DNA of 64,000 bases from Planctomycetota bacterium (GTDB lineage: Bacteria > Planctomycetota > Planctomycetia > Pirellulales > Pirellulaceae). The notes under the pieces are model-generated. The model saw only the letters and a program-made list of their open reading frames with translations. It did not search any database and was not told the origin of the DNA. A program made the position numbers and the translations under genes. Shown piece after piece: positions 517 to 63,535 of the stretch. Positions within the stretch are counted from its first letter, which is position 1. Each line of letters opens with the position of its first letter. The DNA is taken from the NCBI GenBank assembly GCA_026692845.1, contig JAPLNM010000105.1, forward strand, positions 1 through 64,000, in the 5' to 3' direction.

Positions 517-1701
517 TTACCGATCAAGAAATGCGTTGTTGGATAGGTCGCTCGTAAGCTGCCCTCGCAGCGCCTTGTCGAGCAACTCAGGCATCCGACT
601 CGGACTGCATGCAAAGCAGGGGATCCCAATCGATGCCAGCTTCTTGGCCAGCGATTCGTCGAATATCGGTTTGCCATGATCGGCAAGCGCTAAAAGACAA
701 ACGCACTTGACCCCACTGCCTACCATCTCTTCCAAACGTCGAACCAACTGGGCCTGATTCCCACCCTCGTACAAATCGGTGATCATGATGAATAGTGTTT
801 TGCTCGGATCCTCGATGAACTTCTGGCAATAAGCTACCGATTTGTTGATGTCCGTGCCTCCCCCAAGCTGAACGCCAAAGAGCATATTGACCGGATCATC
901 CCCGCATTTCTCCGTCAAATCGACCACCTCGGTATCGAATGCGATCACATGCGTCTTGAGCGCTGGCAATGAAGCAAAGATGGAACCCATGATCGCCCCA
1001 TAAACGACCGAGTCGGCCATCGAACCACTTTGGTCCATATCGACGATCACAGTCCAACTGTTGGTGTGCTCTGCTCGCGAAAAAAAATAAACTCGCTCCG
1101 GGACAATCGTCCCTAACTTGGGCTGATAATTCTTTAAATTCCGTCCGATCGTCCACTTCCAATCGATGCTGCTGGCATTGGGTAAAGGTGTATGCTGGCG
1201 TCGGTTGATCGCTCCCATGATCGCTTGACGAATCTGCTGCTCCAACTGCAGCTTGATATCATCGACGACGGCTTGGACAACCATCCTTGCTGTCTGTTTG
1301 GTGCGCTCGGGAATCTGTCCGCTCAACGACATCAATGTGGCTACCAACTGAACGTTCGGCTCGACGGACTTCAACGTCTCGGGCTCGAACAACAATTGCT
1401 TAAGCCCTTTTTTCTCGATGGCATCTTGCTGAATGATGCAAACGACGTCCTCCTTGAAGTAGGTGCGGATATCCCCAAGCCATTTCGCAAGTCTCGGGGC
1501 TGATCCCCCAAGTCCTGCGCTCCGCTTGCCACCCTGGTCAATTGCTTCGGATGTGTCGTCGTAGATCGCTGCCAAGGCTTGGTCCATCTCAAGCTGCTCT
1601 GGGGACAAATCACACCCTGACGAGCAACTCGCAAGCTGCTCTTGGGACGAAGCCCCCAAAATCAATCGCCATCGCTTGACCTGTTCGACGGACACGCTCA
1701 T
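517..1701 (-). CDS. VWA domain protein of MoxR/DUF5682 operon
   Basis: The protein has 394 residues. Its C-terminal half carries a von Willebrand factor A domain with an intact metal-ion-dependent adhesion site: DQSGS, then GGGTD, then TDLYEGG. The N-terminal half is helical with no recognised domain, as in CoxE-like VWA proteins. No signal peptide or membrane segment is visible, so it is probably cytoplasmic. It is the last gene of a five-gene minus-strand operon with a MoxR AAA+ ATPase. VWA proteins are the usual partners of MoxR chaperone-like ATPases, with the VWA domain binding the substrate or target. The ATG at 1701 is the first good start, 51 bp after the DUF5682 stop. The domain is clear; the cellular target is unknown. 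Confidence 0.9.
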   Translation of the reverse strand: MSVSVEQVKRWRLILGASSQEQLASCSSGCDLSPEQLEMDQALAAIYDDTSEAIDQGGKRSAGLGGSAPRLAKWLGDIRTYFKEDVVCIIQQDAIEKKGLKQLLFEPETLKSVEPNVQLVATLMSLSGQIPERTKQTARMVVQAVVDDIKLQLEQQIRQAIMGAINRRQHTPLPNASSIDWKWTIGRNLKNYQPKLGTIVPERVYFFSRAEHTNSWTVIVDMDQSGSMADSVVYGAIMGSIFASLPALKTHVIAFDTEVVDLTEKCGDDPVNMLFGVQLGGGTDINKSVAYCQKFIEDPSKTLFIMITDLYEGGNQAQLVRRLEEMVGSGVKCVCLLALADHGKPIFDESLAKKLASIGIPCFACSPSRMPELLDKALRGQLTSDLSNNAFLDR

Positions 1702-1752
1702 CTGGAAAACCTTTTGGAAAGCGAATAACGACTAGACAACGGAGAACGGCTT

Positions 1753-4113
1753 CTAAATGTCCCCAAAATCGAAATCATTCAAATCCTCCAACGCTTGCTC
1801 TTCTTGCTGAGTCAACGGGCCGTCAAGCGACTCCTTGACATCCTCGTTGTGGACTCCCCAAACCTCGGCTAGATTTTCAGCGATGTTCCGCTTCTCGTTG
1901 GGACTGAATTCGCCAAAAGCACGACGCAAAAAAACCAAGGACCGTTTGAACTGCTCGTCGTCCAACGTCGATACGTAACGATCGAGCGTATCCCAAAGCA
2001 CCTGCCTTGCGATCAATCCATATCGATTCCGTTTGGCTAAACCCTCGAACCAACCGGCTCCCAAGTCGACGGATATGCCGGGAGAAAGCCGACGCGAAAC
2101 CTCGCGGACCAGCGCCTCGTTGCCCATCGATCCGCGTTCGAGTAGCAACGCACAAGCATACCCGGATAGAACCGGATTTCGATCGTCTGCGTCGGAAAGC
2201 GCTTGCAACTTGCGGTTCCAGAGGGATTCATCGATTCGATCGTGAAATTCCAACGCAACTCGATTCATCTGATCGATCGAGTGCAATAACTCCTTGGCCG
2301 CCGTTGCGTCGCAATTGGCCGCTTCGTGCAACGCCAAACACCCCTGAACGAACAACGCTTCAATGAGCGGCACCAGGGGTTGTGTATCAAACCGCCTGAC
2401 ATCGCCATAGCGAACCACCTGCATGAGCTCAAAGGCTGCGGCAGCTATCTGGCCCAGAGCCGAAGTCTCACAGGCCAGACGCTGAAGCTTTTCTCTGGCC
2501 TGCTCCATCGACTCCATCAGGTTGCACTTGCAAGCGTCACTCACGAGCGATGCGGCCGCATCGATCGTCGGAGCGGCCTCGATGAGTTGCTTGAATCGAT
2601 ACCCACAGGCCAACTCGATCGTTTCCCCGAGCAACACCGATTCGACGAGCGTGATCTCGCTTTCCGGACTCCATTGCAGGTTCCAGCGCTCAGCCCAAGT
2701 CGCCGAGTCCTGTCGAACCGGAACGTGCTCTGCAAACAGGACCCCAAGAATTCGCAAACGATGAAAAAAACCCGAACGATCCAAATCCAGAAACGCGCTC
2801 GCTTGGGTCTTTGCTAGACGATTCTCTCGCAAATCGATCGACAACTCCTGCTTGATCGCCGTTCGGTACTTCTCCAACTTCAGACGATCGATGTGCCTGC
2901 CGAAATCCTCCTGGATCGAGGTTCGGCTAACTCCCTTTGGCAGTTGCCCAATGGCCGTCCCAACATCAACCCGCATCAACGATTCTGCGATGTTGCTTCG
3001 TTCCCCATGGCCCAACAATGCGATGGCAGCATCATGCAAATCCTCCAGCGTCGGATGATACCCCTCCTTGAGTGCCGAAAGCGTCTGCGCTAATCGGACC
3101 CCTTCGATCACTTCAGCCGTTGAACGATAAGTGCCTAACTCGCGATAATTTCTAGCGACCGAACTGAGATAGCGCACGCCCAATGCGTCCAAAGGATCGC
3201 TCTGGAGAGTCTCCCACAAAAGCTCAAAATAAGCCGGTGCAAGGTTCCCGGCCCCGTAGCCCGATTGCGTCGATAGCCGAAAGTACGAGTAAGGCATCAG
3301 CGTTAATTTGCTCGCGCGCCGAGGCAAACTCGCAAACTCCTTGTCGCTCATCGCCAAATGCGATCCATTGAGCACCGGGGCATGATACGCACCCACGATG
3401 GCGACGATCTTCTCTGGACGTATCCCCCGTGCCAATGCCTGCTCGATTTGACGTCGCATGAACGCTTCGCGGACCAGATTCTCGGCTCGCCGCCGAAGCG
3501 GCTCGCGATCAAACTCTCGAAGCGAGGCACCAAGCTCGTTGGCAGCCAACCGATAGGCATCCTCGTTGAGGTTGTGCTCGAAGCGTCGCTCCCAATAAGC
3601 GTCGTAACTGGTCTCCCCTGAAATCTCCGCCAAACGTTCGTAAACCGTACCGCGACGAGACTCGCTATCCGTCGGCGTGCTGTCAGCATGCACACTCTCG
3701 GCTAATTCCTCAGCCAATTCCTTAGCCAAATCCTTAGCCAAATCCTTAGCTATGCGCTCGGCAAACTCTATTTCGACCTCCTGCAAACCCAAAAAGGCAT
3801 CCGAAGGCAGATCGATGAACTCAAGCGGCTTGCGGTTCTCGTGGGCCCATAGCACAGCCTGATACTCCGGACTGTAAATCGCCAACGGATAAACCAAAGT
3901 CCGCACGGGCAATGAATCGGTGTAAGCCAAAATGGCCACTGGTGGCTTGGTCCCCTTGTTGACCAAGTGCCCAGTTAGTTCGACCGCATCATGCAAACCC
4001 TCAACCATCACCAAATCGGGCTCAAGGCGATCCAAGTACCGTCGCAAATGCCAAGCACCACTCGGGGAAAGATGCCGAACCCCGAATACGTTGATCTCCC
4101 AAGGGGACGTCAT
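1753..4113 (-). CDS. DUF5682 family protein (EreA/ChaN-like N-terminus)
   Basis: The protein has 786 residues from the ATG at 4113. That start overlaps the MoxR stop codon as ATGA, a translational-coupling arrangement, and is preferred over a longer frame opening at 4152. The N-terminus reads FGVRHLSPSGAWHLRRYL, then PDLVMVEG, which is the hallmark of DUF5682 proteins and resembles the erythromycin-esterase/ChaN/TraB fold. The remainder is helical. A short in-frame repeat (KDLA/KELA, about 3707-3752) gives a charged helix near residue 130. DUF5682 genes regularly sit between MoxR and VWA genes. The biochemical function is unknown; hydrolase-like activity is only a fold-based guess. Confidence 0.85.
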   Translation of the reverse strand: MTSPWEINVFGVRHLSPSGAWHLRRYLDRLEPDLVMVEGLHDAVELTGHLVNKGTKPPVAILAYTDSLPVRTLVYPLAIYSPEYQAVLWAHENRKPLEFIDLPSDAFLGLQEVEIEFAERIAKDLAKDLAKELAEELAESVHADSTPTDSESRRGTVYERLAEISGETSYDAYWERRFEHNLNEDAYRLAANELGASLREFDREPLRRRAENLVREAFMRRQIEQALARGIRPEKIVAIVGAYHAPVLNGSHLAMSDKEFASLPRRASKLTLMPYSYFRLSTQSGYGAGNLAPAYFELLWETLQSDPLDALGVRYLSSVARNYRELGTYRSTAEVIEGVRLAQTLSALKEGYHPTLEDLHDAAIALLGHGERSNIAESLMRVDVGTAIGQLPKGVSRTSIQEDFGRHIDRLKLEKYRTAIKQELSIDLRENRLAKTQASAFLDLDRSGFFHRLRILGVLFAEHVPVRQDSATWAERWNLQWSPESEITLVESVLLGETIELACGYRFKQLIEAAPTIDAAASLVSDACKCNLMESMEQAREKLQRLACETSALGQIAAAAFELMQVVRYGDVRRFDTQPLVPLIEALFVQGCLALHEAANCDATAAKELLHSIDQMNRVALEFHDRIDESLWNRKLQALSDADDRNPVLSGYACALLLERGSMGNEALVREVSRRLSPGISVDLGAGWFEGLAKRNRYGLIARQVLWDTLDRYVSTLDDEQFKRSLVFLRRAFGEFSPNEKRNIAENLAEVWGVHNEDVKESLDGPLTQQEEQALEDLNDFDFGDI

Positions 4114-5255
4114 GACATCTGGTCCGAACAAGCAGCAAAGAGAGGACGCCATTCGGCTCCTCGCTTTTTTAGAACATTCGCAAGATACTCCTGCCAGACA
4201 ATCTTGTCTTTTTCCTCGTCCTTGATGACAGCTCCCTGAATCGAGGATGCCAAGTCCTCCGGGGAAACCTTGCCATCGCCAAAGTTACCAGCAAGCGACA
4301 TGCTTGCGGCAAGAACCGAAATCGCTTCGGCGGTCGAAAGCACCCCCGACGGAGACTTGAGCTTATTCTTGCCGTCGAGCGTTTGGCCTGTACGCAGTTC
4401 GCGGAAGATGGTGACGACTTTTTCAATCGCCTCATCGGCAGGTACCGGGGCCTTGAGCTCGAGGTTCTTCGCAAGCTCATGGACCCGCCTGCGGACAATG
4501 TCCATTTCGGTTTCTAAGGTGGCTGGCGATGGTAGTACGACGATGTTGAACCGACGCTTGAGGGCCGCCGACATATCGTTGACGCCGCGGTCTCGGGTAT
4601 TGGCAGTGGCGATTACCGAAAAACCCTTTTGCGCTGGAATCTCCATCTGAAGCTCTGGAATCGAAATCCGCTTTTCCGATAGCAAAGAGATCATCGCGTC
4701 TTGTACCTCGGATGCACACCGTGTGATCTCCTCAAAGCGAGCGATCGATCCCCCCTCCATCGCTCGCATGATGGGACTTCGAATCAGCGACGTATTCGAT
4801 GGACCCTGGGCGATAAGCAAGGCGTAGTTCCAGGTGTAGCGGATCTGCTCTTCGGTCGTGCCGGCTGTACCCTGAACGACCTTGGTCGAATCGCGATTGA
4901 TCGCCGCCGCCAAATGCTCCGACAACCAAGACTTGGCTGTCCCTGGTTCGCCGATCAACAAAAGGGATCGGTCGGTCAGAAGCGTCGAAATCGCGACCTC
5001 CACCAATCGCTTATAACCCACGTACTTGGGGGTAATTGTCGTTCCGCCGACGGTACCGCCCGTGATATAGGTCAACACCGCCCGAGGGGATAACTGCCAA
5101 CCCGGTGGACGCTCATAGGAATCAGCCTGCGCAAGAGCATCGAGCTCATGGGCATAGTACTCCTCGGCCGGTGCTCGCAACACATTCCCCTGAGAGCTTG
5201 GACCACCTTCTTTTGTTGTCGTCGCGACGAGGTCGTCCGGTTTTTTCTTGGCCAT
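4110..5255 (-). CDS. MoxR-type AAA+ ATPase
   Basis: The protein has 381 residues. Visible motifs are Walker A GEPGTAKSW (about residues 101-109), a Walker B-like segment ARFEEITRC, sensor 1 IATANTRDRGVNDMS and an arginine-finger region LKRRFN. These are typical of MoxR-family AAA+ ATPases, which work as ATP-driven chaperones together with VWA proteins. The stop codon overlaps the next gene start as ATGA, and the HEAT-like gene ends 42 bp upstream, so all five genes are probably one transcript. The N-terminal 60 residues are polar and probably flexible. The protein has no membrane segment and is expected in the cytoplasm. Confidence 0.92.
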   Translation of the reverse strand: MAKKKPDDLVATTTKEGGPSSQGNVLRAPAEEYYAHELDALAQADSYERPPGWQLSPRAVLTYITGGTVGGTTITPKYVGYKRLVEVAISTLLTDRSLLLIGEPGTAKSWLSEHLAAAINRDSTKVVQGTAGTTEEQIRYTWNYALLIAQGPSNTSLIRSPIMRAMEGGSIARFEEITRCASEVQDAMISLLSEKRISIPELQMEIPAQKGFSVIATANTRDRGVNDMSAALKRRFNIVVLPSPATLETEMDIVRRRVHELAKNLELKAPVPADEAIEKVVTIFRELRTGQTLDGKNKLKSPSGVLSTAEAISVLAASMSLAGNFGDGKVSPEDLASSIQGAVIKDEEKDKIVWQEYLANVLKKRGAEWRPLFAACSDQMS

Positions 5256-5297
5256 TTTGGCAATTTCTAAATGAGAGAATGTGGTTCAATGGAAAGA

Positions 5298-7067
5298 CTA
5301 TTTCTTGGTCCGCTCGCGGATTTCGCTGATCGCATCGATCAACCGATTGCTTGCACTCTCTGCGAGTTTCGCGTCGCCAGCAAGGGACTCTAAGGCGGGG
5401 AGTGCATCGGCATTCAAACGGGTCGCTAGATTGCACCATGGATAGGATTCATAAGCACTCTTCTTTTTCAAAGAAGCGGCCAGCTTTTCAATCACGAACG
5501 CGTTGGTCTTAGGATGTCCGATGACGATCATCGCCGAAGCGACCGAGGACTCCAGATTGCTCATCGCTTTGGGATCGGTAAGCTTGGTGTCAATGTATTT
5601 GACCAATCCAGCGTGATTGGGCTGTGCAAGTGCTACGGCTAGCTCCAAATCGTCGGCCGCAATCGCGTCATTCAACCAATCGACATCCATGGGCTTACGT
5701 GCCTCCTTGCGGATCCTTCCCCAATGATATTCGTTGTCACCAAACAAGCCCTCTCGCACAATCGTATTCCTGCGGTGTTCAGGGGTATTCTTTTTCGCCG
5801 AACGGTTGATGTAAGGCGAAAACGTATTGTAAAACTTCTTCGGGGGCAGAACCTCAAGCCCCTGGACAAAAATTTCATGAAAGCATTCCACGGGTAAATG
5901 ATCTCGATGCTGGATCAAGTAATCGATGCTCGCGCTATCGGCGGCTAACGCCTCAACGACGGATTCTACGATATCGAGTCCTCCAGGCGTGGATTTGATC
6001 TTCTGCAATTCTTTAGACATCTCAACGCATTCGCGCAAGAAATGCCTAGACTCAGGTTTCATCGGGTTGCGAAGAATAGAAATCAGCTCAAGGATCCTTC
6101 CAACCTGATCGCCCTGTTTTTTCTTGTCGCTGTTGGATGGGACTTCGACAAGGAGTTTTCTTGCCCGATCCAATGCGGCATCGACAAGCTCCGGTGGCTT
6201 GCTGTCGCTTGCCGCTCTTGCAACAAGCTCCAAATCCTTGCCATCGATACCCTTGATCAATATCGCCAGTGACTCCTCGTTGGCGACCTTGCACAAGGCG
6301 CAATAGGCGGCTTGGCGAACATTCTTGGCCGAAGCCTTGGATTGCTCGATCAAGTACGAAAAATCTTCAGCGTCGCCACCCAAGCATTCAATGGCTGCGA
6401 CCTTGACGTCAGGGGAACCACCCACAAGCGATTCCTTGACCGTCTCTCGCGCGAAAACTGGATCGATCGTGTGCATCAGCTTCAGTCGCCGCGCGTGTCC
6501 AACCTTTCCTTTGATTTCATAAGCGGATTTCAAATCCGCCAGGATCGCCTTGCCATACGTGGGTAGGACTCGTTCTGCGATCAGATCCCCGATTTCACTG
6601 TAGGAGTCGTCGATTGCCAGCAGAGCAGGACGGACCAAACGCAGATCTGCAAACAGACCATGATCGATCGCACTGCGGATCGCGTCGAGTCTCCCGGACC
6701 CTGTCGACGTCAACGCCTCGATCAGCGGCTTGAGCATCCGAGCGCTGATCTGATTGCGCTGGGTAAGAACCGATGTGGATTGGATGCCTTCGAGCTTCCC
6801 GTCCACTCCTGTTGCTCCTTGGGTGTAGAGAATCGAGCAAACCAGTGAGCTGAGAATCAGCAGACTCGATGCGGAGCTCTGTTCGTTGGAGTTGACCAGG
6901 TCCTCGACACTCTCGGCCACTTTGGAAAAAATAGGGGCTTTGGCACCCGCCTTCTTTAGTGGTTCGATCAACTTCTTGATCCGAAAATCACCGGGTGCAA
7001 CCAAACTGCCGGCGACCGCAAGGCGTCGAACCTCGCTGTAGACTTCGTTGAGAATCGCAATGCTCAT
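5298..7067 (-). CDS. HEAT-like helical repeat protein (DUF5691-like position)
   Basis: The protein has 589 residues and is almost entirely helical. Segments such as GSPDVKVAAIECLGGDAED and KNVRQAAYCALCKVANEES have the spacing of HEAT/Armadillo repeats (about residues 215-300). There is no signal peptide or catalytic motif. A TAAGGAGAG ribosome-binding site precedes the ATG at 7067. In related SWIM/MoxR/DUF5682/VWA operons of other bacteria this position is held by a helical scaffold protein annotated DUF5691. I place this gene in the same role by position, not by a confident family match. It is probably a scaffold or adaptor for the MoxR-VWA machine. Confidence 0.75.
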   Translation of the reverse strand: MSIAILNEVYSEVRRLAVAGSLVAPGDFRIKKLIEPLKKAGAKAPIFSKVAESVEDLVNSNEQSSASSLLILSSLVCSILYTQGATGVDGKLEGIQSTSVLTQRNQISARMLKPLIEALTSTGSGRLDAIRSAIDHGLFADLRLVRPALLAIDDSYSEIGDLIAERVLPTYGKAILADLKSAYEIKGKVGHARRLKLMHTIDPVFARETVKESLVGGSPDVKVAAIECLGGDAEDFSYLIEQSKASAKNVRQAAYCALCKVANEESLAILIKGIDGKDLELVARAASDSKPPELVDAALDRARKLLVEVPSNSDKKKQGDQVGRILELISILRNPMKPESRHFLRECVEMSKELQKIKSTPGGLDIVESVVEALAADSASIDYLIQHRDHLPVECFHEIFVQGLEVLPPKKFYNTFSPYINRSAKKNTPEHRRNTIVREGLFGDNEYHWGRIRKEARKPMDVDWLNDAIAADDLELAVALAQPNHAGLVKYIDTKLTDPKAMSNLESSVASAMIVIGHPKTNAFVIEKLAASLKKKSAYESYPWCNLATRLNADALPALESLAGDAKLAESASNRLIDAISEIRERTKK

Positions 7068-55703: not shown

Positions 55704-56259
55704 TGTCTAGACGCTCAGCAAAGCATCTCTCGTAGCAAGCACCGCAAGCTTTCGGTTGCAAGGAAGCAAAGTGCAGCCTTCGAACTTCGTGTCTAGCATC
55801 TACTTCGTTTTTTTAGCTAAGCACCATAAGGCCCGTCCAACACAGCCCCCAAGCCCACGTGATTCCCTTAGACCCGAGACCCTCACTCACGTAAGCGACC
55901 CTTGACTATCAGTACCAAAAGCACCGATAAGCTACATGGCACTTAACCAGATTTCGAAAAATTGCGTACAACTAGATACCCTAAGTAGTCGCCAAGCACG
56001 GAACCCGAGCCGATAGATCGATCGGAATTCGAGTAATTCGACTGGATCGATGTTGAGAACGGCGCCCCCCTGCGTGGCCCAAGAGCCTGATTTCCTCAGT
56101 CCATCATACAGCCGAAGCTTTTATTTCAAGAAATTTCGAATACGGACTGATTTTTGAAGATTGACAGGCTGATGGCTAGTAGTTATCTTCTTAACAAATC
56201 TAAGAAACTCTCGATTTTTACCTTGCAACGGGGTGAGCTTTTCCAGTGCTAGTTGGTAA
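55704..56259. other. intergenic region at the edge of the AT-rich block
   Basis: These 556 bp hold no supported gene. Composition shifts to AT-rich in the last 150 bp, which should contain the promoter of the GAF-kinase gene. A 60-codon minus-strand frame overlapping the kinase start (56121-56303) is doubtful. Confidence 0.45.
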
Positions 56260-58191
56260 ATGTCATCAAAAGACGAGACAATGAGAACCTCTGACCAATT
56301 CATCGACAGCCTCCTGAGTCTTAGGTTTATAGATCCTGAACACGATATTGGTGAATTGTGTAAGATTTGGCAGCAAGCGACTAAGTGTGAATGGGTTTGG
56401 CTTTGGATAAAAAACGAATTTAATGGCCAATTTGAACTTCGCAGGCACCAAAGTGCAAGTAATCGTATATATAAGCCCTTTAGTAAGGGTGCATCTAGCA
56501 GTTTCTCCGTCGCTCAATTCAGCGCCGATCACGATGAAATTGTAGAGCTATACAAAGAAGATTTTAGCGGATGGGAGAAGCATTCTGGATGCGGAACGCG
56601 AAGATATAAATGCATAAGTCACGAAAGCTTAAAGGAACACAAATGTGAAAAGTTCATATGTATTCCTATCGGACTTCGAAAAACCAACAAAGTAAATGCT
56701 TCGGGTTTTAATCTTTCGGCTAGTATCTGCATACACTACTTGAATAAATCGGAGGTGAGTCTAAGTCATGCCGATTTAAGGAGGCTTGGGCAGCTCTCGA
56801 GCTTTTTCATAGAAAACTCATATCGTTCAAGAAATGAAACGACACTCCAGCGATTGTACAGGATCGATTCAGAATTCGCTCATGCAGAGAGGAAGAATTC
56901 TAAAACGATTCTAAATGAGTATTGCCTGCGATTGCTCGGCCAGTTATGCAATATCGTAAAAGCGGAAGCGGCATCATTGTTTTACGATTTAGATGGATGG
57001 GACGAAAGCGTTAAGTTAGTCGGTTCCACACACGACATCTTGAACTGGGAGACAAAAAAAATGCTTCGAAAGCGGGAGCATAAAGACGTTTCCTATACGA
57101 AGCAAGAAGGCTACACAGGGCGAACTTTTGCGTCAGGCCGAATTATGACATCGCATGCTGAAGACGACTTAAAGCGAAAGCCGAAATTCATTGAAAGTGA
57201 TAATAAAAAACATTTCATTGGACGAACGACGGTATTTATTCCATTAAAGTTGTTAACTTCAATCTCTGGAAAAGACGTTCAGCAAACGGTTGGGGTTTTG
57301 AGATGCGTTGGCAAGAAAAAGTCGCCATCCGATTTTTGGGTCGATACGTTCGATCAAATCGATTTGGAAGCGTTGCAGTTTTTCTGCGAACAGATTACTC
57401 CAGTCTTGCTCTCTCTTGTATCGCGAGTCGATCGCGAGAAATCAATCAGTATCGTTAAGCACGATTTGATTGGGCCGTTAGCTCATATTCGACATATTGC
57501 AGATCATCTAGAGACGACGCAAACGGTATCATTGGTTGAGTCTGTTGAGACGATCCAGAAGCCTGATGAAAATCGGTCCGGTTTCTACACTACCAAGCGG
57601 ACATACCAAATGAAGATACCTTTTAGAGACCTAATGAATATAAAAAACCACGCGATCGTTGCGTCAAATTTAGTTGTTCAACTTGACCCCGAAATGACGA
57701 GTCTGACGCGTTTTGCACCAACCCCAACCTTTCTCGATCACGACGTTCTTGCTAGACTCAAGGATGTAATGAAATACGATGCTCGCGAAACAAAAAACAT
57801 GTCGATTTCTTTCGAAGGGTTTGAGGTCATTCCGCAGCTCAAGGTTGATCGCGATGCGATTGAGAGGGTTTTTTTTAATCTGATTTCAAATGCGATCAAG
57901 TATGGGGATAGGGATACGAAGATAATGATCTCTGCTTTCGAGTCTGATACTGAGTACGGAGTTTCTGTTTCCAACTACGGAATTGGAATTGGCGCCTTGG
58001 AACAGAAGCTAATTTTTGAGGAAGGCTATCGATCCGTAGCGGCTACCAAGTCGCCAGCGCCAGGATTAGGTCTTGGGCTGTATATCGCTAGACGCGCTAT
58101 GCAGCGCCATGGCGGTCGACTCGAATTGACGTTTAAAACGGATCCAACCACGTTCTGTATGTTCTTTCCAAAGGTTTTACGAGTGATTTAA
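56260..58191 (+). CDS. soluble GAF-domain histidine kinase, AT-rich
   Basis: The protein has 643 residues with no membrane segment. The first 200 residues and about 205-380 look like two GAF-type sensor domains (second one: KAEAASLFYDLDG, GYTGRTFASGRIM, HFIGRTTVFIPL). The kinase core has an H-box-like SIVKHDLIGPLAHIRHIADH with His401, an N-box FFNLISNAIKYGD, and a G-box APGLGLGLYIARRAMQRHGG. The H-box is unusual because HD replaces the common HE. Codon use is strikingly AT-rich beside its neighbours, which suggests horizontal transfer. A receiver gene follows 13 bp downstream. Confidence 0.85.
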   Translation: MSSKDETMRTSDQFIDSLLSLRFIDPEHDIGELCKIWQQATKCEWVWLWIKNEFNGQFELRRHQSASNRIYKPFSKGASSSFSVAQFSADHDEIVELYKEDFSGWEKHSGCGTRRYKCISHESLKEHKCEKFICIPIGLRKTNKVNASGFNLSASICIHYLNKSEVSLSHADLRRLGQLSSFFIENSYRSRNETTLQRLYRIDSEFAHAERKNSKTILNEYCLRLLGQLCNIVKAEAASLFYDLDGWDESVKLVGSTHDILNWETKKMLRKREHKDVSYTKQEGYTGRTFASGRIMTSHAEDDLKRKPKFIESDNKKHFIGRTTVFIPLKLLTSISGKDVQQTVGVLRCVGKKKSPSDFWVDTFDQIDLEALQFFCEQITPVLLSLVSRVDREKSISIVKHDLIGPLAHIRHIADHLETTQTVSLVESVETIQKPDENRSGFYTTKRTYQMKIPFRDLMNIKNHAIVASNLVVQLDPEMTSLTRFAPTPTFLDHDVLARLKDVMKYDARETKNMSISFEGFEVIPQLKVDRDAIERVFFNLISNAIKYGDRDTKIMISAFESDTEYGVSVSNYGIGIGALEQKLIFEEGYRSVAATKSPAPGLGLGLYIARRAMQRHGGRLELTFKTDPTTFCMFFPKVLRVI

Positions 58192-58204
58192 AGGTTAAAT
58201 TGTC

Positions 58205-58627
58205 ATGGACAAACGAGTTGTTTTTTTTATTGACGATGAAGATAGTATGACCCTCAGCTGGAGGAATTGTCTCGGAGTAGTTTTCGACGTCAAATACTAT
58301 AATGTATATCCGGGTTTTGAACCTATCTACAATGATATCATTAGTTATAATCCCTGCGTAATTATCCAGGACGTTATGATGAAGGATGCTCGAACAAAAA
58401 TTATTAACATCGAAGCGGGTATCGAGATTGCTGAAGCGATAAAAGATACGCTTGTAAAATTACGTATACCACTGATCTTCTTCTCTAATAGAGAGTTTCC
58501 TGATTTTGGAACCGATTTTTCAGAGCTTGATTATCCACCCGAATTACTATACTATCGGTCTAAATTGAAGGTGGGATATCAGACCTTACTAAAAGAAGTT
58601 AATGATGTTCTTTCTGGAGTGATTTGA
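58205..58627 (+). CDS. stand-alone receiver-domain protein
   Basis: The protein has 140 residues. It matches a CheY-like receiver: acidic FIDDED (residues 8-13), phosphoacceptor Asp56 in IIQDVMMKD, FFSN in place of the conserved Ser/Thr and a Lys near YYRSKLKVG. There is no output domain, so it acts by protein contact or as a phosphate relay. AAAGG precedes the ATG. It shares the AT-rich composition of the kinase 13 bp upstream, and the two form one transferred unit. Confidence 0.82.
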   Translation: MDKRVVFFIDDEDSMTLSWRNCLGVVFDVKYYNVYPGFEPIYNDIISYNPCVIIQDVMMKDARTKIINIEAGIEIAEAIKDTLVKLRIPLIFFSNREFPDFGTDFSELDYPPELLYYRSKLKVGYQTLLKEVNDVLSGVI

Positions 58628-58996: not shown

Positions 58997-60187
58997 TTAG
59001 CTAGTCTGCAGGAATTCCTCGCACATTGCGCGAACCTCTGGATCGCTAACACGGTAGCTTACGATCTTCACATCGAGGTCGCATCGACGGTACAGTTCGG
59101 CTGCGCGACGAATCGCATCGAGGATCCAATCGGGCTCGTTGCCAAACGCGCCCCCACCGAGCGATGTTAGGTACACCGATCGGTTGCCAGTCTTCGACGC
59201 ATTGACAAGCGCGGCTGCAAACGTCGCTTCATAAGCGGCCTGCAATATCAGGCTGGCAAACCGTCCCCACAATTCGTAGGACAGACAACTATAAGCCACC
59301 GGCAGGGCCGAGCAATAGGCTTGTGTCACCCTGTGCTCGCAACCTTGAAGGGTTACTTGTGTATCCCACTGCACCCCAATTTTTAATTCGCGACGCAACT
59401 CGTCGAGCTGTGACTCCGACATCCTCCCCAATTTGGAGTCGACCTCTTTGAGCCCTTCGGCACTCGGCAATGCATAACCATTTTGCATGCTCCAAAGGCG
59501 ACTGTCTGCGTTCCCGAGTGCCTTACCGATTTCCTCGAGACAATCGACCTGTTTTGCTTGCGTCTGGCCGATCTGGCCATCCAAGTCGACCAAGTAGTTT
59601 CGGTAGATCGTCCCTGCCCCGCATGCGACCGCACAGGCAGGACCCTGCGTCAGATCCCGCTCGTAGATTCCTACACCTTGTTCTGGTGTGACGTCCGGTG
59701 AAGTCATCTCGAGCAAATTGAACTGCGAGGCGACTTGAAAAAAGGCTCCCGCGTTTGAAGCGTCGGCATGAAGCGCCTTGGCATCACCGACGATCGGGGA
59801 AATCTTCAGCTTTTTATCCTGAGCATCCATCGCTGCTACTAGTTTGCGAAGCGTCCCCAAGGACACGATCTCCAATTTTCCGCATCGGTAAGTCGCGCCG
59901 TTGACTCGACTCGTCCATCGACCCTCCTGCACTTCGATGCACTGGCGAACCTCATCGGGTGACCTTTCGGAAAAACCAGTCAGCTTGGTAAACCAATCGT
60001 CGCGCAAAACCAACGTCGATGGCGTCTTGGTCTTCGGTTTGTCCTGCTCTTTAATCCAATTCAATACGAATCGCTTTTGGGTGTCGTTTTCTGGAGCTTC
60101 ACGCCAAGATCGCTCCGTATCGGCTTGCCGCAATTCGCTCAGCACTTCAAATACGTTCTCCTTGGTGGCATGACCATGCTTCAAGAG
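58997..60187 (-). CDS. macro/PARG-like domain part of an amber-split phosphatase fusion
   Basis: This is the distal part of a 536-codon frame (58997-60607) broken by one TAG at 60188-60190. The first 45 residues (HGHATKENVFEVLSELR...) complete the preceding phosphatase. The rest contains GDAKALHADASNAGAFFQVA, SQFNLLEM, TQGPACAVACGAGTIYRNY and SLGGGAFGN near the C-terminus. The last resembles the ligand loop of PARG-like macro domains (LGxGAFGN). I recall this as a widespread family of unproved function. It may be translated from TTG at 60184 or ATG codons further in, or only by readthrough. Role in ADP-ribose chemistry is inference. Confidence 0.65.
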   Translation of the reverse strand, partial: LLKHGHATKENVFEVLSELRQADTERSWREAPENDTQKRFVLNWIKEQDKPKTKTPSTLVLRDDWFTKLTGFSERSPDEVRQCIEVQEGRWTSRVNGATYRCGKLEIVSLGTLRKLVAAMDAQDKKLKISPIVGDAKALHADASNAGAFFQVASQFNLLEMTSPDVTPEQGVGIYERDLTQGPACAVACGAGTIYRNYLVDLDGQIGQTQAKQVDCLEEIGKALGNADSRLWSMQNGYALPSAEGLKEVDSKLGRMSESQLDELRRELKIGVQWDTQVTLQGCEHRVTQAYCSALPVAYSCLSYELWGRFASLILQAAYEATFAAALVNASKTGNRSVYLTSLGGGAFGNEPDWILDAIRRAAELYRRCDLDVKIVSYRVSDPEVRAMCEEFLQTS

Positions 60188-60607
60188 CTAGCAGCTGACC
60201 ACCGTACCGGTTCGGCCGATGCCGCCATAGCAATGGAGGTAGACCGGGCGATGGCTCTGGATCGAACCGTCGATCGCATCGACGATGCGGTTCATTCGCT
60301 CATTGGTTGTGATGTGCCGATCCTCAATCGGAAATCTAAGGCAATCGACCGGCTCCTCGGCTTCGGATGCAAGTTGCTCTAGGACTCGATCGTAGGGAGC
60401 AAATAGCTTTCCTTGCGGATTTTTTTCATGCTCCTCCATTAGATTGATGAACGTCCGGATGCCAGCCTTGAACAATCCGGACAGTCGCTCTTTTTGTTGC
60501 TGCGGGTCTGGCTTGCCCGCGTAAGCCCCAGCTAAAAATATCCCATCGAGTACCCAATAAGTTCGCAGGAGAGGAGCTTTCGATCGCGGTGTAAAAAAGT
60601 CGGACAT
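60188..60607 (-). CDS. dual-specificity-type protein phosphatase, cut after the active site
   Basis: There are 139 residues from the ATG at 60607. The active-site loop is YLHCYGGIGRTGTVVSC (HC-x5-R-T/S), preceded by the general-acid region FPIEDRHIT. The frame stops with TAG right after VVSC, where family members continue through CYL.RHGHA and two further helices. Those residues (LLKHGHATKENV) are present in the same frame immediately after the TAG. A single base change therefore splits a phosphatase-macro fusion. The truncated protein keeps Cys and Arg but lacks the helices that pack behind the loop, and is probably unstable unless the TAG is read through. Confidence 0.78.
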   Translation of the reverse strand: MSDFFTPRSKAPLLRTYWVLDGIFLAGAYAGKPDPQQQKERLSGLFKAGIRTFINLMEEHEKNPQGKLFAPYDRVLEQLASEAEEPVDCLRFPIEDRHITTNERMNRIVDAIDGSIQSHRPVYLHCYGGIGRTGTVVSC

Positions 60608-62858: not shown

Positions 62859-62967
62859 TCGGGCGGATTGCTAGGCAATCCAACACGTCGGTCATTTGAT
62901 ATCTCATATCCATTTGGATCGGATATCCCTATCGATCGGGCATCGCATCGGATTTCCTCGTGCTCGT

Positions 62968-63090
62968 GCTCAGTCCGCCGCGGCGGACTGAGCACGAGCA
63001 CGGCGAACAGCCAGAACCAAGCGATGGACCGAAGACCTCGATCGAGCGTTTTTTGACTTGCGTTGAGTTATCTCCTGTCACTCGGTCAAT
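62968..63090. repeat. palindrome-bearing direct repeat, copy 1
   Basis: The unit starts with the 20-bp perfect palindrome CAGTCCGCCGCGGCGGACTG (62971-62990), continues with AGCACGAGCACGGCGAACAG and ends near ACTCGGTCAAT. The first 59 bp match copy 2 exactly; the rest is about 85% alike by eye. Confidence 0.85.
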
Positions 63091-63411
63091 ATCGGTCGTT
63101 CTGACGTAGAATCGCAATGATCGTGCTCGTGCTCAGTGAAACGGTGCTCGTGCTCGTAATCGATTTTGGACATCAAGGACAGAATACTTGTTTGACCATG
63201 ATCGACTTGACGTTTATCGGCATTCGAGCCAGAGTGTGCTGCGGTTCAAGACATGCTGGTGGTTTCTGGCGTTCTGAATCGAGAAACGAGTTTCGATCTG
63301 AAATCCAAACTTGCGCGAATTGGGGCGATATTGACAAAGATGGCAATGAAATTCGATGGTGTCTGGGGAATCCCTGAGCGAGTACACTCTGAGCATCGAT
63401 TACGAGCACGA

Positions 63412-63535
63412 GCTCAGTCCGCCGCGGCGGACTGAGCACGAGCACGGCGAACAGCCAGAACCAAGCGATGCAGACGAAGTGCTCGATCGAGCGTTTTTTG
63501 ACGTGCGTTGCGCTATCACCTGTCGCTCGCTCAAT
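63412..63535. repeat. palindrome-bearing direct repeat, copy 2
   Basis: Second copy of the 62968-63090 unit, in the same orientation, 320 bp on. It carries the same 20-bp palindrome (63415-63434) and ends about 165 bp before the sulfatase start. Confidence 0.85.

Follow-up and report, generated by a model that had tools for sequence, protein, structure and literature searches.

According to the available text of PMC9503650, loci with Nudix or WYL regulators couple ARG hydrolases to a phosphatase in slightly more than 55% of neighbourhoods, and the phosphatase there most commonly belongs to the rhodanese-phosphatase superfamily. Bacterial poly(ADP-ribose) glycohydrolases (PARGs) can take ADP-ribose off RNA 5'-phosphate ends and 2'-OH groups, and the PARG gene of D. 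radiodurans shares a putative operon with a gene for a phosphatase/kinase protein (both from the accessible part of PMC11833690). A change of both motif and specificity within a macrodomain branch is exemplified by DUF4804, where MavL matches the PARG structure 3SIH with a DALI Z score of 5.8 (PMC10951314, as far as its accessible portion goes). The locus analysed here, within a 64,000-nucleotide stretch of a planctomycete MAG contig (the window), joins a Cys-based phosphatase to a domain of PARG/macrodomain fold in one frame that is broken by a single amber codon. We put at about two in three the probability that it specified a two-domain ADP-ribose/NAD enzyme recently inactivated in this MAG by an ordinary amber codon, and that it is an accessory gene decaying repeatedly in the genus.

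Homology across an internal amber codon

Read on the reverse strand from 60607 to 58997, the frame consists of 139 codons, a TAG (codon 140), 396 further codons and a terminal TAA.

58997..60607, minus strand: whole phosphatase–PARG-fold fusion frame, 536 codons plus TAA with one internal TAG (sequence, homologue across the stop)
60188..60190, minus strand: internal TAG at codon 140, Trp in near relatives (sequence, homologue alignment)

That one stop splits an otherwise open frame had been proposed from the letters of the window, and indeed only the TAG interrupts the 536 codons; the length then given, about 390 codons, fits the part after the stop (396) but not the whole frame, as 139 more precede it. 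The window contains 22 same-frame open pairs that are split by one stop and have at least 120 codons on each side, so it is homology and not the open frame that constitutes evidence for one gene. The closest intact homologue, from a Pirellula MAG (locus L003, genome G019), aligns with the window's copy over residues 1-532 in one frame and without a gap, with 434 identities in 532 positions (82%), of which 99/139 (71%) lie before the stop and 335/392 (85%) after it. This ungapped similarity indicates that both halves belong together, the residues on either side of the TAG joining in one frame as anticipated, and the continuous homology rules out an artificial joining of unrelated frames. Intact homologues of the fusion were searched for and open fusions found at five loci (L003, L016, L017, L034 and L008), so the homologues are not confined to two separate genes.

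At position 140 a Trp is present in 15 of 18 aligned related phosphatases and a Leu in the remaining three, with a stop in none; of the two residues that the sequence-only reading expected there, Tyr or Trp, Trp was therefore right and Tyr (0/18) was not. The stop is private to this MAG, since in the clade formed by the window's copy, L003 and L004 (support 100/98) only the window has the TAG. A search of the genome for a second copy gave no further protein match at E 0.001, and at the DNA level just one 38-base stretch elsewhere.

60038..60607, minus strand: Cys-based phosphatase domain of PTP-SAK/DSP type, residues about 1-190 (Pfam, fold match)
60206..60235, minus strand: P-loop HCYGGIGRTG, residues 125-134, with Cys126 and Arg132 (sequence)

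Assignment of the N-terminal half to the Cys phosphatases is borne out by its match to PF22784 (PTP-SAK, 5.2e-17, residues 36-169), which scores 62.7 bits with the TAG read as X, against a cut-off of 27, and 54.6 bits for the truncated half alone. The half lies above the cut-offs of three Pfam families, PTP-SAK (PF22784), Tc-R-P (PF22785) and PTP-NADK (PF22741), and the model of the intact homologue matches the fold of human VHZ/DUSP23. An HCx5R loop is present, in the form HCYGGIGRTG, which we take to be the P-loop motif of Cys phosphatases. In the predicted model of the intact homologue the TAG position falls within the helix that follows this loop (residues 132-143). The product of this genome thus lacks a complete phosphatase domain; truncated inside that helix it should not fold as a phosphatase, and going by the model the phosphatase of this MAG is very probably dead. 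The profile phrog_17568, which matches residues 79-192 of the L003 half at 1.1e-13, carries the label 'thymidylate synthase', which we take to be misleading.

Fate of the interrupted gene

The interrupted gene shows the marks of constraint on both sides of the stop. Compared with L003, dN/dS is 0.29 before the stop and 0.14 after it, at a dS of about 0.6, a distance at which small differences between the halves should not be over-read. In columns where two outgroup sequences agree, the window's copy has five private changes before the stop and L003 seven, and after it six and five, respectively. All 39 C-domain columns that are near-invariant across 36 rows and two subfamilies are retained and, beyond the stop itself, the downstream part shows no decay. 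This constraint indicates that the lesion is recent, or that the C-terminal half is still made, or that the stop is a consensus or strain variant. The earlier proposal was of a very recent mutation or of a TAG open to read-through; what is retained is one nonsense mutation in a fusion gene that is otherwise under constraint, while the evidence speaks against read-through.

Were the TAG read through or recoded, giving a regulated full-length product, the frame past the stop would be expected to stay open and constrained, as it does. This is nevertheless highly improbable, as no CUA-anticodon tRNA occurs among 43 tRNA matches in the genome (ARAGORN read 42, and the last is UCC by Rfam alignment), a count in which a tRNA may have been missed since 150 of 207 candidates were scored and the MAG is 96% complete. 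Furthermore release factor 1 is present, scoring over its family cut-off, TAG serves as an ordinary stop that terminates 10 of 39 long, mechanically listed ORFs in the window, and the related phosphatases have no stop at the site. Neither mark of an amber-recoded gene, a suppressor tRNA or loss of RF1, was found. One tRNA match without a full D-arm, with anticodon UCC in the Rfam alignment and uncalled by ARAGORN, lies at G000:C105:89007-89065 (L102 3008-3066).

In the assembly the amber codon is genuine, though nothing out of the ordinary, and damage to this gene recurs in the genus. A C-domain match is present in 12 of 27 genomes of the genus (its own genome counted), and in five of these 12 the copy is damaged: besides the window's, there is a frameshift near residue 79 (G016), an in-frame loss of 25 residues (G017), a 13-residue gap ahead of the ASQFN motif (G025) and a fragment of just 75 residues, well inside its contig (G002). 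In another genus of the family a single-contig genome (G036) keeps a remnant that has lost an internal stretch. Several lesions among the relatives come from MAGs, in which assembly errors are possible. It may likewise be that the TAG is a consensus, sequencing or minor-strain artefact and the population gene is intact, as would suit a single substitution with no other damage, purifying selection on both sides and an assembly in 182 contigs. Nothing direct speaks against such an artefact, but the independent lesions in other genomes of the genus make a real one unsurprising, and we consider an artefact unlikely, if far from negligible. The best reading is of an accessory gene that is decaying repeatedly in the genus, the TAG being ordinary decay (or a consensus or strain variant).

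The domain behind the stop and its phosphatase partner

59012..59998, minus strand: PARG/macrodomain-fold domain of an unnamed family, residues 204-532 (models, fold searches)
59708..59737, minus strand: signature QxASQFNxLE, residues 291-300 (36/36 rows)
59639..59650, minus strand: signature TQGP, residues 320-323 (36/36 rows)
59138..59158, minus strand: GGGAFGN loop, residues 484-490, matching the PARG loop GAWGCGAFGN (sequence comparison)

The PARG/macro-like character ascribed to the C-terminal half is confirmed at the level of fold, by models and fold searches. A predicted model of the window's own C-domain (pLDDT 84, pTM 0.89) has bacterial PARGs as its best fold matches, 3sih with Z 17.9 and an rmsd of 3.8 over 237 aligned residues at 12% identity, and 5zdb with Z 17.7 and an rmsd of 3.7 over 233 residues, other macrodomains reaching Z 14.4 and lower (Z scores from VIA); Foldseek places the model against PARG at E 2.5e-5. 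None of the Pfam or NCBIfam models scores over its cut-off on this half, PADLOC and PHROGs return no match, and PDB sequences give none against the C-domain profile to E 10. Sub-cut-off matches to YagK_YfjJ_C (0.03-0.05), SPATS2-like (0.22), NTS (0.31), Res_ParT_toxin (0.014) and PRK14429 (0.14) were taken as chance. Profile-profile comparison with PARG is weak and local, with a probability of 24-38% over the GAFGN end, and a global alignment is useless.

Motifs and conservation were counted in 36 of the 41 rows of the C-domain tree, the incomplete L004, L025, L039, L050 and L128 having been dropped. QxASQFNxLE, TQGP and a loop of the form GGGx[FC]xN are each present in all 36 rows, and these three signatures are common to two subfamilies that are split by long, fully supported branches. 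The GGGAFGN loop presumably has a phosphate-binding role, and TQGP would stand where PARG has QEE, judging from the order of the elements and not from an alignment. The MacroD motif Nx6GG[V/L/I] is found in two of the 36 rows (L008 and L013), the window's row being without it. The PARG catalytic motif, GGGx6-8QEE as defined after the available part of PMC10951314, occurs in none of the 36 rows but in 7/7 PF10021 PARGs taken from relatives and, in one case, from this genome itself, these controls having been picked from their loci by a looser GGG..QE pattern. PF10021 itself has no match in eight C-domain proteins, two of them the window's, in searches listed to E 1 and E 10.

These counts bear on whether the C-domain is a true poly(ADP-ribose) glycohydrolase, in an enzyme that strips phosphate and poly- or mono-ADP-ribose from proteins or RNA. 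The ranking of bacterial PARGs above all other macrodomains in the fold searches and the retained GGGx[FC]xN loop point that way; the catalytic motif that is found in the real PARGs of relatives and nowhere in this family, and the genome's possession of its own PF10021 PARG, argue against it, and we hold a true PARG to be quite unlikely. As modelled, the C-terminal half has the look of an enzyme of PARG fold whose active site differs; this is resemblance to PARG and not identity with it. The PF10021 PARG of the same genome, with its GGG...QEE motif, lies at G000:C168:2686-3111 and suggests that ADP-ribose is also turned over in other ways.

The fusion is real and recurrent. Among 44 loci (388,574 bases scanned) a phosphatase profile matches 16, in every case as a fusion with the C-domain or as the gene immediately upstream of it in the same orientation, and it has no other match in those bases at E 1e-4; the profile was built from seven phosphatases of these loci (L003, L005, L008, L009, L013, L050 and L138, the last being the same gene as L022), so that matches at the seven source loci arise by construction. 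The pairing is seen in both deep C-domain subfamilies. Paired loci comprise Pirellula fusions and split pairs, a fused Mycobacterium copy (L008), a proteobacterial MAG (L009), an uncultured actinobacterium in which the two genes overlap (L013) and a viral contig (L050). A genome of the window's class (G419) is also paired, though its C-domain comes from the other subfamily; its phosphatase, outside the profile set, matches at 2e-36 and is confirmed by Pfam (PF22784, 7.8e-18). One genome (G032) has both domains at distant loci. Tree parsimony calls for at least six changes between linked and unlinked states and at least three for fusion, on a tree with 12 unresolved forks. In the L050 viral contig (4433-6011) the phosphatase gene is followed by a C-domain gene with its own internal stop, and another viral contig (L049, 4986-5981) has a C-domain gene without a phosphatase. 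The fusion had been called unusual; it is real, but less unusual than that suggests, as it or the pairing extends over planctomycetes, actinobacteria, a proteobacterial MAG and a viral contig, and coupling of a phosphatase to an unrelated ADP-ribosyl hydrolase is already published. Searching the literature by title or abstract start returned no described macro–phosphatase fusion, and PMC9503650, beyond its accessible part, may mention such pairs.

60182..60184, minus strand: possible restart codon TTG, 3 bases past the TAG (sequence; function conjectural)

At 28 of the 44 loci, including five plasmid loci and three that are remnants only and absent from the tree (L028, L029 and L126), there is no phosphatase at E 1e-4 in the stretch scanned. 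The PARG-fold half must therefore be able to work alone, and in this MAG it may still do so if translation restarts at the TTG just past the stop or at TTGs near residue 199-201, yielding a stand-alone PARG-fold protein. This would be in keeping with the separate C-domain gene directly behind the phosphatase in three close relatives (G005, G018 and G008) and with the 39 near-invariant columns kept. However TTG is a weak start codon, and by eye no Shine-Dalgarno sequence was seen before any of these TTGs. We regard a working restart as rather unlikely, and prefer the reading in which the amber codon has inactivated the gene as a whole.

Genomic context and comparison with known systems

In two mycobacterial loci the C-domain is followed by a PnuC-type transporter (PF04973) and an AAA_28-domain protein, which we read as a probable NadR. 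A further actinobacterial locus (L121, genome G493) has a divergent NrtR-type Nudix regulator (PF21906) and a short ORF that looks by eye like a PnuC remnant and has no Pfam match, and at the fourth (L013) no NAD genes were seen by eye. NAD-gene context is thus present at three of four actinobacterial loci and was seen nowhere else, most of the other neighbours standing outside the family scan. These actinobacterial neighbours point to ADP-ribose/NAD metabolism. No paper on a macrodomain together with PnuC and NadR was found in the literature search.

Of 72,556 plasmid records, 338 contain C-domain genes; 260 of these records come from Klebsiella and 288 are predicted conjugative, and among the matches listed the genes are nearly always annotated 'hypothetical protein'. 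By DNA similarity 41 of 5,426 E. coli genomes have the gene, 17 over at least 80% of the query, and always on plasmids. Six plasmid regions that were inspected list no phosphatase beside the C-domain gene. Phage records gave no match at E 0.01, and a scan of viral contigs gave three with the C-domain.

Several features near these genes are recorded as such. In the window a VWA_CoxE, a DUF5682, a MoxR-type AAA and a weakly HEAT-like gene lie in a row (517-7067, minus strand). In G019 the first three of these families (VWA_CoxE, DUF5682 and MoxR) stand directly upstream of the phosphatase–PARG gene; a MoxR–DUF5682–VWA cluster as a fixed planctomycete operon partner was rejected, the window's cluster (517-5255) being 54-57 kb off, and the proximity was put down to chance. 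Closer to the gene, 56260-58627 holds a histidine-kinase-like gene and, downstream of it, a small gene that no Pfam model matches, and GC is 43% at 56001-58000, compared with 52% in the immediately preceding stretch and about 55% across much of the window. At 62959-63535 there are repeats of 68 nt and of 61 nt, in two copies each and spaced by about 444 bases, built around a GC-rich near-palindrome. Possible arsenic-resistance neighbours of a C-domain gene are present in L009 (2035-5227, LMWPc and SBF families by Pfam), and similar ones (LMW-phosphatase-like and an SBF transporter) were seen in L011 (1-2850), by eye only.

The intact product would be an enzyme of two domains, with a PTP-SAK-type Cys phosphatase joined to a domain of PARG fold. 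The PARG-fold half would bind and cleave a compound containing ADP-ribose, releasing or cutting the ADP-ribosyl part, and the phosphatase would take a phosphate off the same or the next compound, in the clearing or salvage of NAD or ADP-ribose. In this MAG a single base change would have replaced the conserved Trp codon behind the P-loop by an ordinary amber stop, and the PARG-fold half would also be lost unless a weak internal start supplies it. The substrate is probably a derivative of ADP-ribose or NAD, and poly-ADP-ribose seems very doubtful. The suggestion that one enzyme reverses two different protein modifications stays unproven, the PARG motif being absent from all 36 rows and the informative context being NAD/ADP-ribose metabolism.

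This unnamed family of PARG fold merits investigation for its own sake. The notable part of the locus is the domain behind the stop, which is deeply conserved, outside the curated families searched and tied recurrently to one phosphatase type. More tentatively, and with rather less than even confidence, we suggest that it is a new PARG/macrodomain branch that uses a catalytic motif of its own (QxASQFNxLE plus TQGP) for a new reaction on a compound derived from NAD or ADP-ribose, forms an ancient two-step module with a dedicated PTP-SAK phosphatase, and is carried by conjugative plasmids in enterobacteria, perhaps as protection from attack that consumes NAD or ADP-ribosylates. Were its substrate defined, ADP-ribose biology would gain a reaction and a common plasmid gene a function.

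Among known systems, bacterial-type PARG (PF10021; T. curvata 3sih and D. radiodurans 5zdb) has in common with the C-terminal half its fold over 237 residues and a GAFGN-type loop. The two differ in that the half is only 12% identical, lacks the QEE pair and a PF10021 match, has its own invariant QxASQFNxLE and TQGP, and has a phosphatase fused or paired with it. The DUF4804/MavL-type arginine-specific macrodomains (PMC10951314, accessible portion) are likewise a branch that has departed from the PARG and MacroD motifs, but their WDxx[S/A]xPGN is found in 0/36 rows here. The N-terminal half is over the cut-off of PTP-SAK, Tc-R-P and PTP-NADK alike, whereas no NAD kinase and no toxin cassette is fused to it here. 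The ARG/DraG loci, as the available text of PMC9503650 presents them, resemble this one in having an ADP-ribose hydrolase and a Cys phosphatase as a fusion or as tight neighbours, and the NrtR-type Nudix regulator beside one actinobacterial copy extends the likeness; the hydrolase there has the unrelated ARG fold, and here the PARG/macrodomain fold.
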